Origin: a virus
Strand: one strand, 5' to 3'
DNA length: 20,148 nt
IMG/VR virus record: IMGVR_UViG_3300028920_000618
Span: 1-20,148 of that record
The translations under genes and the position numbers were made by a program. A model generated the notes under the pieces. The model was not told the origin of the DNA and ran no database searches. It saw only the letters and a program-made list of their open reading frames with translations. Shown piece after piece: positions 11,903 to 20,120 of this stretch (position 1 is the stretch's first letter; each line of letters starts with the position of its first letter).

Positions 11903-11930
11903 TTTGCATCCAAACCAAAAAGGGTATAAT
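11903..11930 (+). promoter_or_regulatory. Promoter of the tmRNA gene
   Basis: TTTGCA (11903-11908), 16 bases, then TATAAT (11925-11930). The predicted start near 11937 leaves a short 5' leader of about 14 bases for RNase P to remove before mature tmRNA at 11951. The -35 box is weak. Confidence 0.6.
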
Positions 11931-11950: not shown

Positions 11951-12292
11951 GGGGACGAATTAGGATCGACTGGATCATTGAAAAACAAGGTTGCATTCCG
12001 TGGTTGTCGGATGGCCACGTAAAACCCCGACAAAACAATAACTGCAAACGCAGAACTAAAAATGGCTGCTTAAAATAGCAACCCCCGAAAGTGGTAGAGG
12101 TCACGGTAACCATGAGTAAGGACAACAACAGTGACTGACACTGTGGAAAGACACGGTGACTGCGACAAAGTCGTTGACTGCTTTGGAAAGACAAGCAAAG
12201 GTTGTTGGATGAACCTATCGCCAACTATGAATGTATAAGCCTGTTTGGACTGATTGCAGGACGAGGAGTGCAATTCTCCTCCGTCTCCACCA
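11951..12292 (+). ncRNA. ssrA: Transfer-messenger RNA (tmRNA)
   Basis: The 342-base gene begins GGGGACG and ends CGTCTCC-A-CCA; these ends pair as a 7-bp acceptor stem with one G-U. A T-arm with loop TGCAATT precedes the 3' strand. The tag frame starts at resume codon GCA 12044 and ends TAA at 12071-12073, encoding ANAELKMAA after the Ala carried by tmRNA itself; the terminal Ala-Ala is the usual protease signal. GC-rich pseudoknot-like segments follow the tag (for example GACAACAACAGTGACTG and its near repeats to 12200). Its job is to rescue stalled ribosomes and tag the unfinished protein. A phage copy may favour rescue during infection or change the tag. No G3-U70-only variant is seen, but G3-T70 is present, the AlaRS determinant. 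Confidence 0.95.
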
Positions 12293-12623: not shown

Positions 12624-12651
12624 TTGACACATTAGTATAGTTCTGTATAAT
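12624..12651 (+). promoter_or_regulatory. Consensus sigma70 promoter before the structured leader
   Basis: TTGACA (12624-12629), 16 bases, TATAAT (12646-12651): both hexamers are perfect. Transcription should begin near G12658, exactly at the 5' strand of the first RNA stem. It starts directly after the preceding stop codon. Confidence 0.85.
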
Positions 12652-13463: not shown

Positions 13464-13538
13464 TGCGGGTGGCGAGGCTGGGCCTCGATTGGTCTCATAA
13501 GCCATTGATTGCAGGTTCGATTCCTGTGCCCGCTACCA
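13464..13538 (+). tRNA. tRNA-Met(CAU), initiator-like 1-72 mismatch
   Basis: Anticodon loop CTCATAA with CAT. D-stem CGAG/CTCG, T-arm loop TTCGATT, encoded CCA preceded by A73. Acceptor pairs 2-7 are GCGGGT/GCCCGC while 1-72 is T-T, unpaired. An unpaired 1-72 is the initiator hallmark, but the three G-C pairs of initiator anticodon stems are not complete. An alternative register pairs G65 onward as 7 bp but loses the CCA. Confidence 0.85.
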
Positions 13539-16635: not shown

Positions 16636-16721
16636 GGGTAGGCTTCCGAGTTGGAGAACGGAACCAGTCTGTAAAACTGGTGGCTATGCCTGAGTGAGTT
16701 CGATTCTCACCCTGCCCACCA
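16636..16721 (+). tRNA. tRNA-Tyr(GUA)
   Basis: Acceptor GGGTAGG/CCTGCCC, anticodon stem CCAGT/ACTGG with loop CTGTAAA (anticodon GTA), the long variable arm usual for bacterial Tyr tRNA, T-loop TTCGATT, A73 and encoded CCA. Confidence 0.95.
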
Positions 16722-16728
16722 TATACTT

Positions 16729-16804
16729 GTGGCGTTAGGCGAATGGTTAAGCCGCTGCCCTTTCAAGGCAGAAATTGCAGGTTCAAATCCTGTACGCCAT
16801 ACCA
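16729..16804 (+). tRNA. tRNA-Glu(UUC)
   Basis: Acceptor GTGGCGT/ACGCCAT with G1-U72, anticodon stem CTGCC/GGCAG, loop CTTTCAA (TTC), T-stem GCAGG/CCTGT, A73 and CCA encoded. Confidence 0.95.
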
Positions 16805-16805
16805 T

Positions 16806-16885
16806 CGAGTAGTTGGGGAGTCTGGTCACCCCGCCTGATTTGGGATCAGGAGAACTCGCAGGTTCAAATCCTGCCTACTCGACCA
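16806..16885 (+). tRNA. tRNA-Pro(UGG)
   Basis: Acceptor CGAGTAG/CTACTCG, D-stem GGGG/CCCC, anticodon stem CCTGA/TCAGG, loop TTTGGGA (TGG), T-stem GCAGG/CCTGC, A73 and CCA. The variable loop has seven bases, slightly long. Confidence 0.95.
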
Positions 16886-16890
16886 TTTAT

Positions 16891-16964
16891 GCGGGTATCG
16901 TATAGTGATAATACCCTAGCCTTCCAAGCTAGTGACGAGAGTTTGATTCTCTCTACCCGCTCCA
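16891..16964 (+). tRNA. tRNA-Gly(UCC)
   Basis: Acceptor GCGGGTA/TACCCGC, anticodon stem CTAGC/GCTAG, loop CTTCCAA (TCC), T73 (the Gly discriminator in bacteria) and encoded CCA. Confidence 0.95.
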
Positions 16965-16969
16965 TACAC

Positions 16970-17011
16970 GTCCCACTCTCTGAGTATTCGGGGGTTCATA
17001 GTGGGGCACCA
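16970..17011 (+). other. tRNA-like minihelix (possible tRNA remnant)
   Basis: GTCCCACT (16970-16977) and AGTGGGGC (17000-17007) pair as 8 bp with one G-T, followed by ACCA exactly as at a tRNA 3' end. Only 22 bases lie between, with no D or anticodon arm. It fills the gap between the Gly and Asp tRNAs. It may be a deletion remnant or a small acceptor-like RNA. Confidence 0.4.
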
Positions 17012-17012
17012 C

Positions 17013-17090
17013 GGTCCCATAGTGTAGTCTGGCCTAGCACACTAGATTGTCGATCTAGTAGCGGGGATTCAAATTCCCCTGGGACCGCCA
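17013..17090 (+). tRNA. tRNA-Asp(GUC)
   Basis: Acceptor GGTCCCA/TGGGACC, anticodon stem CTAGA/TCTAG, loop TTGTCGA (GTC), T-stem GGGGA/TCCCC, G73 (Asp discriminator) and CCA. Confidence 0.95.
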
Positions 17091-17097
17091 TTTACAT

Positions 17098-17175
17098 GGA
17101 CAGGTAATGCTAACTGGCAAAGCTCAAACTTTCAAAAAGTTTGGTTTGGGAGTTCGACTCTCCCCCTGTCTACCA
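17098..17175 (+). tRNA. tRNA with Leu anticodon (CAA) but short variable loop
   Basis: Acceptor GGACAGG/CCTGTCT with G1-U72, anticodon stem AAACT/AGTTT, loop TTCAAAA (CAA), variable loop only GGTTT, T-stem GGGAG/CTCCC, A73 and CCA. Bacterial Leu tRNAs normally have a long variable arm, so charging identity is uncertain. Confidence 0.8.
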
Positions 17176-17215
17176 TATAATCCAATGATAACAAGGTAGG
17201 TTATCTGAAAACATA

Positions 17216-17243
17216 TTGACAATATATCATATATCATTATCAT
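17216..17243 (+). promoter_or_regulatory. Promoter of the first HNH gene
   Basis: TTGACA (17216-17221), 16 bases, TATCAT (17238-17243). The ATG at 17251 is only seven bases past the -10 box, so the message may be leaderless. Confidence 0.6.
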
Positions 17244-17250
17244 GTATATT

Positions 17251-17673
17251 ATGAAACAAATAAAGATTCTTAATAGGTATGACAACAATAGTGATGGTTA
17301 TGATGGATATATACGTGTTTGGCTATCAGACGGAAGGGTCATTGGCGAACATCGTTTCATTATGGAACAAAAAATAGGAAGAAAGTTACAACCAAACGAA
17401 ATAGTACATCACAAAGATGGAAACAAAAAAAATAATCATATAGACAACCTAAGCATAGAAACAAGATCTTTCCATTCTGCATCTCATCAAGAACCAGGAG
17501 AGATGATTTCATTGCTTTGTGATTATTGCAATAAGCCATTTACACGAGAAATGTATCGCATTAGAACAAAAAGAAAACATGGACAGAAGTTTTTTTATTG
17601 TAGTAGATCGTGTGGTACAAAACATCAATTCAAAATAAGGAACGATAGCTTAAAAGGTAAAGTGCTAGACTGA
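17251..17673 (+). CDS. HNH homing endonuclease with C-terminal zinc finger
   Basis: This 140-residue protein has an HNH_3-type nuclease core: H34 (GEHRFIME), then EIVHHKDGNKKNN at 50-62 with H53/H54, and N66. Four cysteines follow, C90-x2-C93 and C117-x3-C121, as a zinc finger. Such enzymes nick or cut near their own insertion site and spread by copying into empty alleles. I choose ATG 17251 rather than ATG 17242, which overlaps the -10 box. The last 11 codons and the TGA stop lie inside the Phe tRNA gene (35-base overlap), so its C-terminus is encoded by the D-arm and anticodon stem. It interrupts the tRNA array and is free-standing, not in an intron. Confidence 0.85.
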   Translation: MKQIKILNRYDNNSDGYDGYIRVWLSDGRVIGEHRFIMEQKIGRKLQPNEIVHHKDGNKKNNHIDNLSIETRSFHSASHQEPGEMISLLCDYCNKPFTREMYRIRTKRKHGQKFFYCSRSCGTKHQFKIRNDSLKGKVLD

Positions 17674-17713
17674 AGATCTGGTGTCCTCCGTTCAATTCGG
17701 GGTCGTTCCACCA
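17639..17713 (+). tRNA. tRNA-Phe(GAA)
   Basis: Acceptor GGAACGA/TCGTTCC, anticodon stem CTAGA/TCTGG, loop CTGAAGA (GAA), T-loop TTCAATT, A73 and CCA. Its first 35 bases are also the 3' end of the HNH gene. Confidence 0.93.
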
Positions 17714-17714
17714 T

Positions 17715-17788
17715 GCCGCCATACTTCAATGGTAGAAGAATAGTTTTGTAAACTATCAATCTCAGTTCGATTCTGAGTGGTGGCTCCA
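17715..17788 (+). tRNA. tRNA-Thr(UGU)
   Basis: Acceptor GCCGCCA/TGGTGGC, anticodon stem ATAGT/ACTAT, loop TTTGTAA (TGT), T-loop TTCGATT, T73 and CCA. Confidence 0.94.
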
Positions 17789-17795
17789 TTTATTT

Positions 17796-17873
17796 GGTAG
17801 GGTAGGCAAATTGGTGAAGCCGCTTGTCTTATAAACAAGTGATGTGCGAGTTCAATCCTCGCCCCTACTACCA
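17796..17873 (+). tRNA. tRNA-Ile(UAU)
   Basis: Acceptor GGTAGGG/CCCTACT with G1-U72, anticodon stem CTTGT/ACAAG, loop CTTATAA (TAT), T-stem GCGAG/CTCGC, A73 and CCA. Most bacteria read AUA with a modified CAU anticodon, so a UAU version is a phage-supplied alternative. Confidence 0.93.
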
Positions 17874-17874
17874 T

Positions 17875-17949
17875 GCCCTCGTAGTGTAGTAGATAGCACG
17901 ATTGACTACGGATCAATTAGCAAGGGTGCAAATCCTTTCGAGGGTACCA
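17875..17949 (+). tRNA. tRNA-Arg(ACG)
   Basis: Acceptor GCCCTCG/CGAGGGT with G1-U72, anticodon stem ATTGA/TCAAT, loop CTACGGA (ACG), T-loop TGCAAAT instead of TTC, A73 and CCA. A34 would need deamination to inosine by host TadA to read all CGN codons. Confidence 0.93.
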
Positions 17950-17953
17950 CATA

Positions 17954-18007
17954 TAAGTATATATGTCCACATTAATAAACGACATATATATCTCGTTTGA
18001 CATATAT
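17954..18007. repeat. AT-rich inverted repeat between Arg and Val tRNAs
   Basis: TATATATGTC and GACATATATA form a perfect 10-base inverted repeat around a 13-base loop, and a third GACATATATA copy lies immediately before the Val tRNA, overlapping its 5' flank. It may be a processing hairpin or a remnant of insertion. Confidence 0.45.
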
Positions 18008-18084
18008 AGTCCCATCGCTTAGCTGGCAAAAGCATCTGGTTTACACCCAGAAGATCCTCCGTTCGAGTCGGAGTGGGACTACCA
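18008..18084 (+). tRNA. tRNA-Val(UAC)
   Basis: Acceptor AGTCCCA/TGGGACT, anticodon stem TCTGG/CCAGA, loop TTTACAC (TAC), T-stem CTCCG/CGGAG, A73 and CCA. Confidence 0.94.
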
Positions 18085-18085
18085 T

Positions 18086-18171
18086 GCACCCTTCACACAA
18101 TGGTAGTGTACCAGATTTTTAATCTGGCGAGAGCAATCTCATTGGAGGTTCAATTCCTCCAGGGTGTACCA
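18086..18171 (+). tRNA. tRNA-Lys(UUU) with a long variable arm
   Basis: Acceptor GCACCCT/AGGGTGT with G1-U72, D-stem ACAC/GTGT, anticodon stem CCAGA/TCTGG, loop TTTTTAA (TTT), then a 16-base variable arm with stem GAGA/TCTC and GCAA tetraloop, T-stem GGAGG/CCTCC, A73 and CCA. Lys tRNAs normally have a short variable loop; a long arm is expected only in Leu, Ser and Tyr tRNAs. Confidence 0.85.
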
Positions 18172-18178
18172 TTTATTT

Positions 18179-18253
18179 GCTGCTATGGTGTAACAGTCAG
18201 CACGTGACCCTGATAAGGTTAAAGTCTTGGTGCAATTCCAGGTAGCAGTACCA
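18179..18253 (+). tRNA. tRNA-Ile(GAU)
   Basis: Acceptor GCTGCTA/TAGCAGT with G1-U72, anticodon stem TGACC/GGTTA, loop CTGATAA (GAT), T-loop TGCAATT, A73 and CCA. Confidence 0.93.
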
Positions 18254-18254
18254 T

Positions 18255-18329
18255 GGGGACGTAGTTCAGTGGTAGAACACCTGAATCATAATCAGGAAGT
18301 CGTAGGATCGTAACCTACCGTCCCTACCA
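18255..18329 (+). tRNA. tRNA-Met(CAU), elongator or Ile2 type
   Basis: Acceptor GGGGACG/CGTCCCT with G1-U72, anticodon stem CCTGA/TCAGG, loop ATCATAA (CAT), T-loop ATCGTAA, A73 and CCA. CAT could also be Ile after lysidine modification; with a separate Ile(UAU) present, Met is more likely. Confidence 0.9.
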
Positions 18330-18338
18330 TACCAATAT

Positions 18339-18429
18339 CGAAGGGTGTCAGAGAGGCTTATCGAGCACGGTTGCTAACCGTGTGGACCTTAATAGGGTTC
18401 CATGGGTTCAAATCCCATCCCTTCGGCCA
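18339..18429 (+). tRNA. tRNA-Ser(GCU)
   Basis: Acceptor CGAAGGG/CCCTTCG, anticodon stem with loop TTGCTAA (GCT), long variable arm as usual for Ser, T-stem ATGGG/CCCAT, G73 and CCA. Confidence 0.94.
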
Positions 18430-18434
18430 TATAT

Positions 18435-18511
18435 AGTCTCGTAGTTCAATTGGCTAGAGCATCAGGTTTTGATCCTGAAAGTTTGAGGTTCGACTCCTCA
18501 CGAGACTGCCA
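18435..18511 (+). tRNA. tRNA-Gln(UUG)
   Basis: Acceptor AGTCTCG/CGAGACT, anticodon stem TCAGG/CCTGA, loop TTTTGAT (TTG), T-stem TGAGG/CCTCA, G73 and CCA. Confidence 0.94.
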
Positions 18512-18512
18512 T

Positions 18513-18586
18513 AACCCTGTGGTGAAGAGGTATCACGTCTGGTTCTGGTCCAGAAGTCCTGGGTTCAATTCCTGGCAGGGTTGCCA
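18513..18586 (+). tRNA. tRNA-Gln(CUG)
   Basis: Acceptor AACCCTG/CAGGGTT, anticodon stem TCTGG/CCAGA, loop TTCTGGT (CTG), T-loop TTCAATT, G73 and CCA. It follows Gln(UUG) by one base. Confidence 0.94.
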
Positions 18587-18604
18587 CCGCTTTTTAAAAA
18601 CGTC

Positions 18605-18632
18605 TTGCACCTTTATAAAATATCATTATAAT
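18605..18632 (+). promoter_or_regulatory. Promoter of the second HNH gene
   Basis: TTGCAC (18605-18610), 16 bases, TATAAT (18627-18632). Unlike the other two inserted genes this one has a leader with AGGAGG. Confidence 0.6.
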
Positions 18633-18657
18633 CTCTTTGTATAATATAGGAGGTTAT

Positions 18658-19161
18658 ATGCAAAACAAATTACAGAAGGTGATTATATATGCAAAAAACA
18701 AAGGAATGAGAGTAGAACCTGATGGAACAATAATCGGAATGAAAAACAAACCAATTAAAGGAACGATAGATCATAGGGGATACATTAAGGTATGCGTTAA
18801 GTTTCACAAAAAAGATATCCCTGTTTATATTCATAGATTACAAGCATATCAGAAATTCGGAGATAAGATTTTTGAAGATGGTATGCAGGTAAGACATCTT
18901 AATGGTGACAGCCAAGACAACAGTTGGAGTAATATAGCAATAGGAACAATGCAACAAAATCACATGGACAAAAAACCAATGACAAGATTAAATGCAGCGA
19001 GAAAGGCTGCTTTAGCACAGAGAAAATACACAAACAATCAGGTGGAAGAGATTAGATCAAGAAAAAAGAGCGGTGAATCTTTGAATTCTTTGGCAAGATC
19101 TTTTAACACAACAAAAGGTCATATATCACAAATAGTTAACAAAGTTATATACAACTATTAA
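18658..19161 (+). CDS. HNH homing endonuclease with C-terminal helix-turn-helix
   Basis: This 167-residue protein has an HNH core: H59 (VYIHRLQAYQKFG), VRHLNGD at 78-84 with H80 and N82, N92 and H102 in the following MQQNHMDK. The C-terminal 50 residues (NNQVEEIRSRKKSGESL, then a helix-turn-helix NSLARSFNTTKGHISQIV) recognise DNA. I choose ATG 18658, four bases after AGGAGG; the frame from 18637 would start within the promoter spacing. It fills the gap between Gln(CUG) and Ser(UGA) and ends three bases before the Ser tRNA. It is probably mobile by homing and interrupts no gene. Confidence 0.88.
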   Translation: MQNKLQKVIIYAKNKGMRVEPDGTIIGMKNKPIKGTIDHRGYIKVCVKFHKKDIPVYIHRLQAYQKFGDKIFEDGMQVRHLNGDSQDNSWSNIAIGTMQQNHMDKKPMTRLNAARKAALAQRKYTNNQVEEIRSRKKSGESLNSLARSFNTTKGHISQIVNKVIYNY

Positions 19162-19164
19162 TAC

Positions 19165-19258
19165 AGAGGAGTTGACCCCAGTAGGTGCGGGAACTGGTTT
19201 TGAAAACCAGGGGATTGTGAAAGCAGTCTTGGGGGTTCGAGTCCCCCCTCCTCTGCCA
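19165..19258 (+). tRNA. tRNA-Ser(UGA)
   Basis: Acceptor AGAGGAG/CTCCTCT, anticodon stem CTGGT/ACCAG, loop TTTGAAA (TGA), long variable arm, T-stem GGGGG/CCCCC, G73 and CCA. Confidence 0.94.
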
Positions 19259-19277
19259 CAAAAACCATACCATTTTT

Positions 19278-19353
19278 GGGTCCATAACTCAATTGGCAGA
19301 GTACCTGGTTCTTACCCAGGAAGTTGGGGGATCGTTGCCCTCTGGACCCACCA
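19278..19353 (+). tRNA. tRNA-Lys(CUU)
   Basis: Acceptor GGGTCCA/TGGACCC, anticodon stem CCTGG/CCAGG, loop TTCTTAC (CTT), T-loop ATCGTTG, A73 and CCA. It has the normal short variable loop, unlike the Lys(UUU) gene upstream. Confidence 0.93.
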
Positions 19354-19358
19354 AATAA

Positions 19359-19487
19359 CTGGCAATATGTTACCACTTAACCCCAAAAAAGGTTACTAAC
19401 TCGCAACATATTACCTCTTATAATGTGCATTTCTAGGCAACTTACAACCCTTAATGCATGATAATGTGTACATTAAGGCAACTTACA
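19359..19487. repeat. Intergenic direct-repeat block between Lys and Leu tRNAs
   Basis: Two repeat families. A 27-base unit at 19420-19446 and 19461-19487 shares ATAATGTG and AGGCAACTTACA (22 of 27 bases equal, 41-base period). A 22-24 base unit at 19359-19380 and 19399-19422 shares GCAAYATRTTACC and CTTA. No gene or tRNA was found in this 163-base gap. Confidence 0.6.
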
Positions 19488-19516
19488 GTTCGTAAGGAAT
19501 GAATAGTCATACATAT

Positions 19517-19593
19517 GGTGCGGTGGGCTAATTGGCAAAGCCATGTGATTTAAGCTCACATGAATGGGGATTCGACTTCCTCCCGCACTACCA
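19517..19593 (+). tRNA. tRNA with Leu anticodon (UAA) but short variable loop
   Basis: Acceptor GGTGCGG/CCGCACT with G1-U72, D-stem GGC/GCC, anticodon stem TGTGA/TCACA, loop TTTAAGC (TAA), variable loop TGAAT only, T-loop TTCGACT, A73 and CCA. It resembles the CAA tRNA at 17098 in its D-loop and T-loop, so the two may be paralogues. Confidence 0.82.
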
Positions 19594-19600
19594 AAAATTC

Positions 19601-19628
19601 TTGACCATAAGATTATTTATGGTATCAT
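19601..19628 (+). promoter_or_regulatory. Promoter of the third inserted gene
   Basis: TTGACC (19601-19606), 16 bases, TATCAT (19623-19628). The ATG at 19639 lies ten bases beyond, so the message would have almost no leader, as for the first HNH gene. Confidence 0.6.
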
Positions 19629-19638
19629 AAAATATATT

Positions 19639-19896
19639 ATGCTTTCTATCAGAATCAAAAAGACATGTGAAAGATGTGGTAAAAAATATAATGATGTTGA
19701 ATCACACATAAACAGAAGAAAGTATTGCGGTGTAAAGTGTAGCCGACTTGCCTCAAGAAAATGTAAACACCCAACCAAAAGGGAGTTACTTGCACTGCTC
19801 AAGAACAATAGCTTTTGTGCCATTGGTAGACTGTTCAATGTCTCAGACAATGCAGTCAGGAAGTGGGCAAAGCAATACAATATCATACCCCAATAA
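19639..19896 (+). CDS. Zinc-finger/HTH protein, probable remnant of a homing endonuclease
   Basis: The 85-residue product has C10-x2-C13 and C30-x3-C34, a zinc finger like that of the first HNH gene, and a C-terminal helix-turn-helix (PTKRELLALLKNNSF, then IGRLFNVSDNAVRKWAKQYNI) common at the end of HNH homing enzymes. No H-N-H catalytic motif is present, so it is either the DNA-binding part left after deletion or a repressor-like protein. I choose ATG 19639; the longer frame begins inside the Leu tRNA. Its last codons and TAA lie in the first ten bases of the Arg(CCU) tRNA, the same arrangement as the first HNH gene. Confidence 0.75.
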   Translation: MLSIRIKKTCERCGKKYNDVESHINRRKYCGVKCSRLASRKCKHPTKRELLALLKNNSFCAIGRLFNVSDNAVRKWAKQYNIIPQ

Positions 19897-19961
19897 CTTA
19901 ACGCAAAAAGTACTGCTCTCCTAAAGCAGGAATGGAGGTTGGATTCCTCCTTGGGGTACCA
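19887..19961 (+). tRNA. tRNA-Arg(CCU)
   Basis: Acceptor ACCCCAA/TTGGGGT, anticodon stem CTGCT/AGCAG, loop CTCCTAA (CCT), T-loop TTGGATT with G at the usual C56, A73 and CCA. D-stem ACTT/AAGT. It overlaps the stop of the inserted gene by ten bases. Confidence 0.88.
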
Positions 19962-19966
19962 AATAT

Positions 19967-20041
19967 GCTCGTATAGCACAATGGATAGTGCCCTGGATTT
20001 CTAATCCAGTCATCTAGGTTCAATTCCTAGTACGAGTACCA
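19967..20041 (+). tRNA. tRNA-Arg(UCU)
   Basis: Acceptor GCTCGTA/TACGAGT with G1-U72, anticodon stem CTGGA/TCCAG, loop TTTCTAA (TCT), T-stem CTAGG/CCTAG, A73 and CCA. Confidence 0.94.
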
Positions 20042-20046
20042 CATAT

Positions 20047-20120
20047 TCCAGTATGGTGTAATGGTAACATAAACGGCTGTTAACCGTTAGATCTTGGTCC
20101 GATTCCAAGTACTGGAGCCA
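20047..20120 (+). tRNA. tRNA-Asn(GUU)
   Basis: Acceptor TCCAGTA/TACTGGA, anticodon stem AACGG/CCGTT, loop CTGTTAA (GTT), T-loop TCCGATT, G73 (Asn discriminator) and CCA. Confidence 0.93.

Follow-up and report, generated by a model that had tools for sequence, protein, structure and literature searches.

Bacteria use tmRNA to free ribosomes that have stalled and to label the incomplete protein for degradation. Phages carrying a tmRNA gene were already named in 2014, among them Bacillus phage G and mycobacteriophages (PMC4131195). Of the 18,146 phage genomes surveyed in a 2022 paper, 402 had such a gene, and its authors proposed that phage tmRNAs keep the hijacked translation machinery going or assist in recycling host proteins (PMC9004378). 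The description of such genes as rare in phages, made in the initial annotation of the DNA studied here, hence holds only in a relative sense. Bacillus phage G, the mycobacteriophage Bxz1 group and Wildcat, and Pelagibacter/OM43 phages such as Melnitz each have, like the phage analysed here, a complete tmRNA in the genome; in the Melnitz type, however, it is two-piece, whereas ours is one-piece.

The DNA that we analysed (the window) is a whole IMG/VR virus contig of 20,148 bases. The Rfam tmRNA model RF00023 matched it on the plus strand from 11951 to 12292, exactly the coordinates initially annotated, and end to end (model positions 1–374 of 374) with 106.4 bits and E = 4.5e-41, about twice the gathering cut-off of 47 bits. 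ARAGORN reported no tmRNA in the window at its default threshold, and at 80% of it (-ps80) found one with the tag that we read from the sequence, along with the resume consensus. With a probability of roughly three in four, in our view, the locus is a working one-piece tmRNA gene of a phage that also has many tRNA genes. Its features are as follows.

11903..11930, plus strand: sigma-70-like promoter TTTGCA-16-TATAAT (consensus scan, 10/12 matches; not by itself evidence of function)
11951..12292, plus strand: one-piece tmRNA (ssrA) gene (RF00023, 106.4 bits, positions 1–374; ARAGORN -ps80)
11951..11957, plus strand: 5′ strand of the acceptor stem, GGGGACG, with G3 opposing U70 (sequence; Rfam alignment)
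11999..12033, plus strand: pseudoknot PK1, CGUGG/CCACG and UUGUCGG/CCGACAA (Rfam alignment; pseudoknot enumeration)
12044..12073, plus strand: tag frame ANAELKMAA-stop, with resume codon GCA at 12044 (sequence; ARAGORN)
12091..12136, plus strand: probable PK2, GUGGU/ACCAU and GGUCAC/GUGACU (energy enumeration on a single sequence)
12199..12225, plus strand: probable last pseudoknot (PK4), AGGUU/AACCU and GUUGG/CCAAC (energy enumeration on a single sequence)
12259..12285, plus strand: T-arm and junction GGACGAGGAGTGCAATTCTCCTCCGTC, with T-loop UGCAAUU, U55 being replaced by G (sequence; same change in bacterial and phage tmRNAs)
12290..12292, plus strand: encoded 3′ CCA (sequence)

The alanine-type tRNA-like domain is complete. 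Its ends pair as the initial annotation had proposed, in a 7-bp acceptor stem (GGGGACG/CGUCUCC) followed by the discriminator A and the encoded CCA, and the stem contains the G3·U70 alanine identity pair, which is what AlaRS recognises. The tag codons, in the frame likewise noticed at first reading, are GCA AAC GCA GAA CTA AAA ATG GCT GCT TAA. A two-piece (permuted) tmRNA was considered and rejected, given that the 5′ and 3′ ends are in the standard order and the 3′ part is not encoded before the 5′ part. Permuted tmRNA-like genes were encountered on two other virus contigs (L133, L138); their tag, an uncertain call, may be the 22-residue DNKTFTPELKIEGLFSDLEMAA, after which come two stop codons.

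Upstream of the resume codon lies a complete H-type PK1 of 5 + 7 bp, on which the pseudoknot enumeration and the Rfam alignment agree, and P2 is intact. The initial annotation had held that a high covariance score with intact pseudoknots would support function; the score is about twice the cut-off and PK1 is intact, but PK2–PK4, although probably present, are candidates resting on single-sequence energetics, since RF00023 aligns poorly with the middle of the molecule. When the energies of the four best pseudoknots that do not overlap were added up, one of them spurious and located in the T-arm, 2 of 100 dinucleotide shuffles attained the sum, and in RNAfold no shuffle of 100 was as stable as the whole tmRNA (z = −3.48).

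With the one-piece bacterial tmRNAs described by RF00023, the phage tmRNA thus shares a full-length match, an acceptor with CCA, PK1, a resume region and a short alanine-rich tag, and differs from them in the weak PK2–PK4 match, in the G in place of U55 in its T-loop (GTGCAA) and in a 5′ region, GGAUCGAC, with one base fewer than the consensus GGAUUCGAC. The latter two features probably contribute to the low tmRNA scores. Together with a score under ARAGORN's default threshold, they might be read as signs of a decayed copy or a decoy that no longer tags and perhaps competes for SmpB, for which the tRNA-domain-only sequence of mycobacteriophage DS6A offers a model (PMC4131195). We regard this as unlikely, since we see no damage to the tag frame, its stop codon, PK1, P2, CCA or the G3-U70 pair, and since U55G recurs in bacterial tmRNAs that look functional and the GGATCGAC form in many two-piece tmRNAs on virus or phage contigs.

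A pattern search placed the GTGC T-loop in the one-piece tmRNAs of 26 genomes of bacteria, from Bacillota, Chloroflexota and one Acetobacteraceae MAG. Extracted tmRNAs from one Bacillota class had U55G in 12 of 13 genomes; all 13 scored at least 145 bits with RF00023 and had tags of the form AN[DN][NDE]YALAA. These Bacillota MAG tmRNAs (class of G055, L213–L225; also L183) resemble ours in being one-piece with the U55G T-loop (GTGCAAYTC in the class of G055), but have GC-rich stems and nine-codon tags that end in -LAA, such as ANNEYALAA or ANNELALAA, and are about 59–68% identical to it overall, no better than background. A separate group of phage tmRNAs (L152–L167) is also one-piece, with U55G and encoded CCA, on virus contigs, but these are 385–387 nt long, have the 20-residue tag AEDNVVSYDFSYD[DE]VVALAA and are otherwise different in sequence. 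That group comprises 16 virus contigs (among G025–G047), and its tag, where read, is unusually long. The occurrence of U55G in intact bacterial and phage tmRNAs, and of the GGATCGAC form in many two-piece ones, indicates that neither U55G nor the short GGAUCGAC is a mark of decay.

The tag is the feature in which the gene departs somewhat from the ordinary. ARAGORN's tag list returns ANAELKMAA as "not identified", and the degenerate pattern GCNAAYNNNGARNTNAARATGGCNGCNTRA found no match in viral contigs or in bacterial and archaeal genome contigs (84,980 genomes); the host may thus lie outside that collection, have a tmRNA that the search overlooked, or use a different tag. By analogy with the known mechanism, the peptide added would be AANAELKMAA, counting the alanine from the charged tmRNA. 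Lys and Met stand where most tags carry Ala and Leu, and one could imagine a purposely different tag in which -LKMAA is poorly recognised by the host protease or adaptor, with fragments spared or rerouted while ribosomes are still rescued. We think this quite improbable: the C-terminal Ala-Ala, which matters most in the ClpXP degron, is kept with a hydrophobic residue just before it, and changes of the antepenultimate Leu have a modest effect on ClpXP degradation, raising KM modestly (PMC7652416). Tags of other phage-contig tmRNAs also end in -MAA, as in ANDDFYDYAMAA (L125) and ANDEAFLMAA (L147). The different fate for tagged proteins that was initially suggested is therefore possible but not favoured. 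We would give slighter odds still to the phage tmRNA swapping the host tag for one that changes proteolysis, for example by adaptor escape or slower ClpXP; were it so, ribosomes would be recycled in infection without the usual fate of tagged proteins. A survey of Bacillota for -MAA tags gave 1 of 299, probably by chance, and ARAGORN called no tmRNA with an -AA ending there; the survey was uninformative and is not used, as in 51 genomes the corresponding -LAA control pattern had no match either.

The gene is the first of the window in the rightward direction, and the promoter-like TTTGCA-16-TATAAT ends 20 nt before the mature 5′ end. To its left, on the opposite strand, lie genes for a RecA/UvsX-like recombinase, a DnaB-like helicase, a primase, an SSB-like protein, a RuvC-like resolvase, an exonuclease and glycosyltransferases; on the right it is followed by small genes lacking a family assignment, together with a metallophosphoesterase, a D12 methylase, HNH genes and 24 tRNA genes. 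This position, between phage replication genes and the 24-tRNA region of a virus contig, indicates that the tmRNA is phage-borne rather than host flank. Capture of a host ssrA at a prophage junction, conceivable in that ssrA is a known integration target with fragments reported in prophages (cited in PMC9004378), is very improbable for a complete gene with phage genes on both sides and no integrase found among the window proteins scanned.

A perfect sigma-70 consensus (TTGACA-16-TATAAT) occurs at 12624–12651, past the 93-aa gene that follows the tmRNA. Of the tRNA genes, 23 lie at 16636–20120, up to the contig end, and the tRNA-Met at 13464 is the other one; no tRNA for Ala, Cys, His or Trp is encoded in this contig fragment. 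Two HNH_3 endonuclease genes (17242–17673 and 18637–19161) are inside the array, and an ORF at 19564–19896 has, by eye, the appearance of a zinc-finger/HTH homing-type gene.

Searches with window proteins and the tmRNA revealed no close relative of the phage in virus contigs or phage records. The tmRNA had no detectable DNA similarity by blastn to 50,697 phage records, a pattern search of viral contigs found no one-piece U55G tmRNA of similar size, and candidate related tmRNAs were all at background identity to ours. Whole-locus ARAGORN scans at low threshold gave mostly false matches, and the scans used were instead confined to the surroundings of pattern matches. The RecA search returned only relatives of about 50% identity, and helicase, glycosyltransferase and primase searches of viral contigs no confirmed relative. 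Best matches were mostly Bacillus, Geobacillus and Staphylococcus phages for the helicase and primase, and Synechococcus and Tetrasphaera phages for the glycosyltransferase; because these all lie below 30% identity, we claim no host.

If the gene is a functional tmRNA as we favour, it would be transcribed rightward, starting at the sigma-70-like promoter and probably preceding the small downstream genes, and the transcript would be trimmed at both ends in the manner of a tRNA. Given G3-U70, host AlaRS would be expected to charge it. No smpB was seen among the window proteins scanned, so it would fall to host SmpB to bring the tmRNA to ribosomes that have stalled on a broken mRNA or one lacking a stop codon. 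Such a ribosome would then move onto the GCA at 12044 and append (A)ANAELKMAA, after which host ClpXP or a comparable protease would most likely degrade the tagged fragment.

Most likely, then, this tmRNA gene, which looks intact and has only a mildly unusual tag to set it apart, belongs to the phage tmRNAs already known. To the ssrA-carrying phages it adds an apparently intact one-piece tmRNA whose tag pattern is unmatched in the viral and bacterial collections scanned, and it illustrates, with its U55G T-loop, that such genes can escape a gene finder run at default settings. The phage may in this way supply its own ribosome rescue, in the same spirit as it brings its own set of tRNAs.
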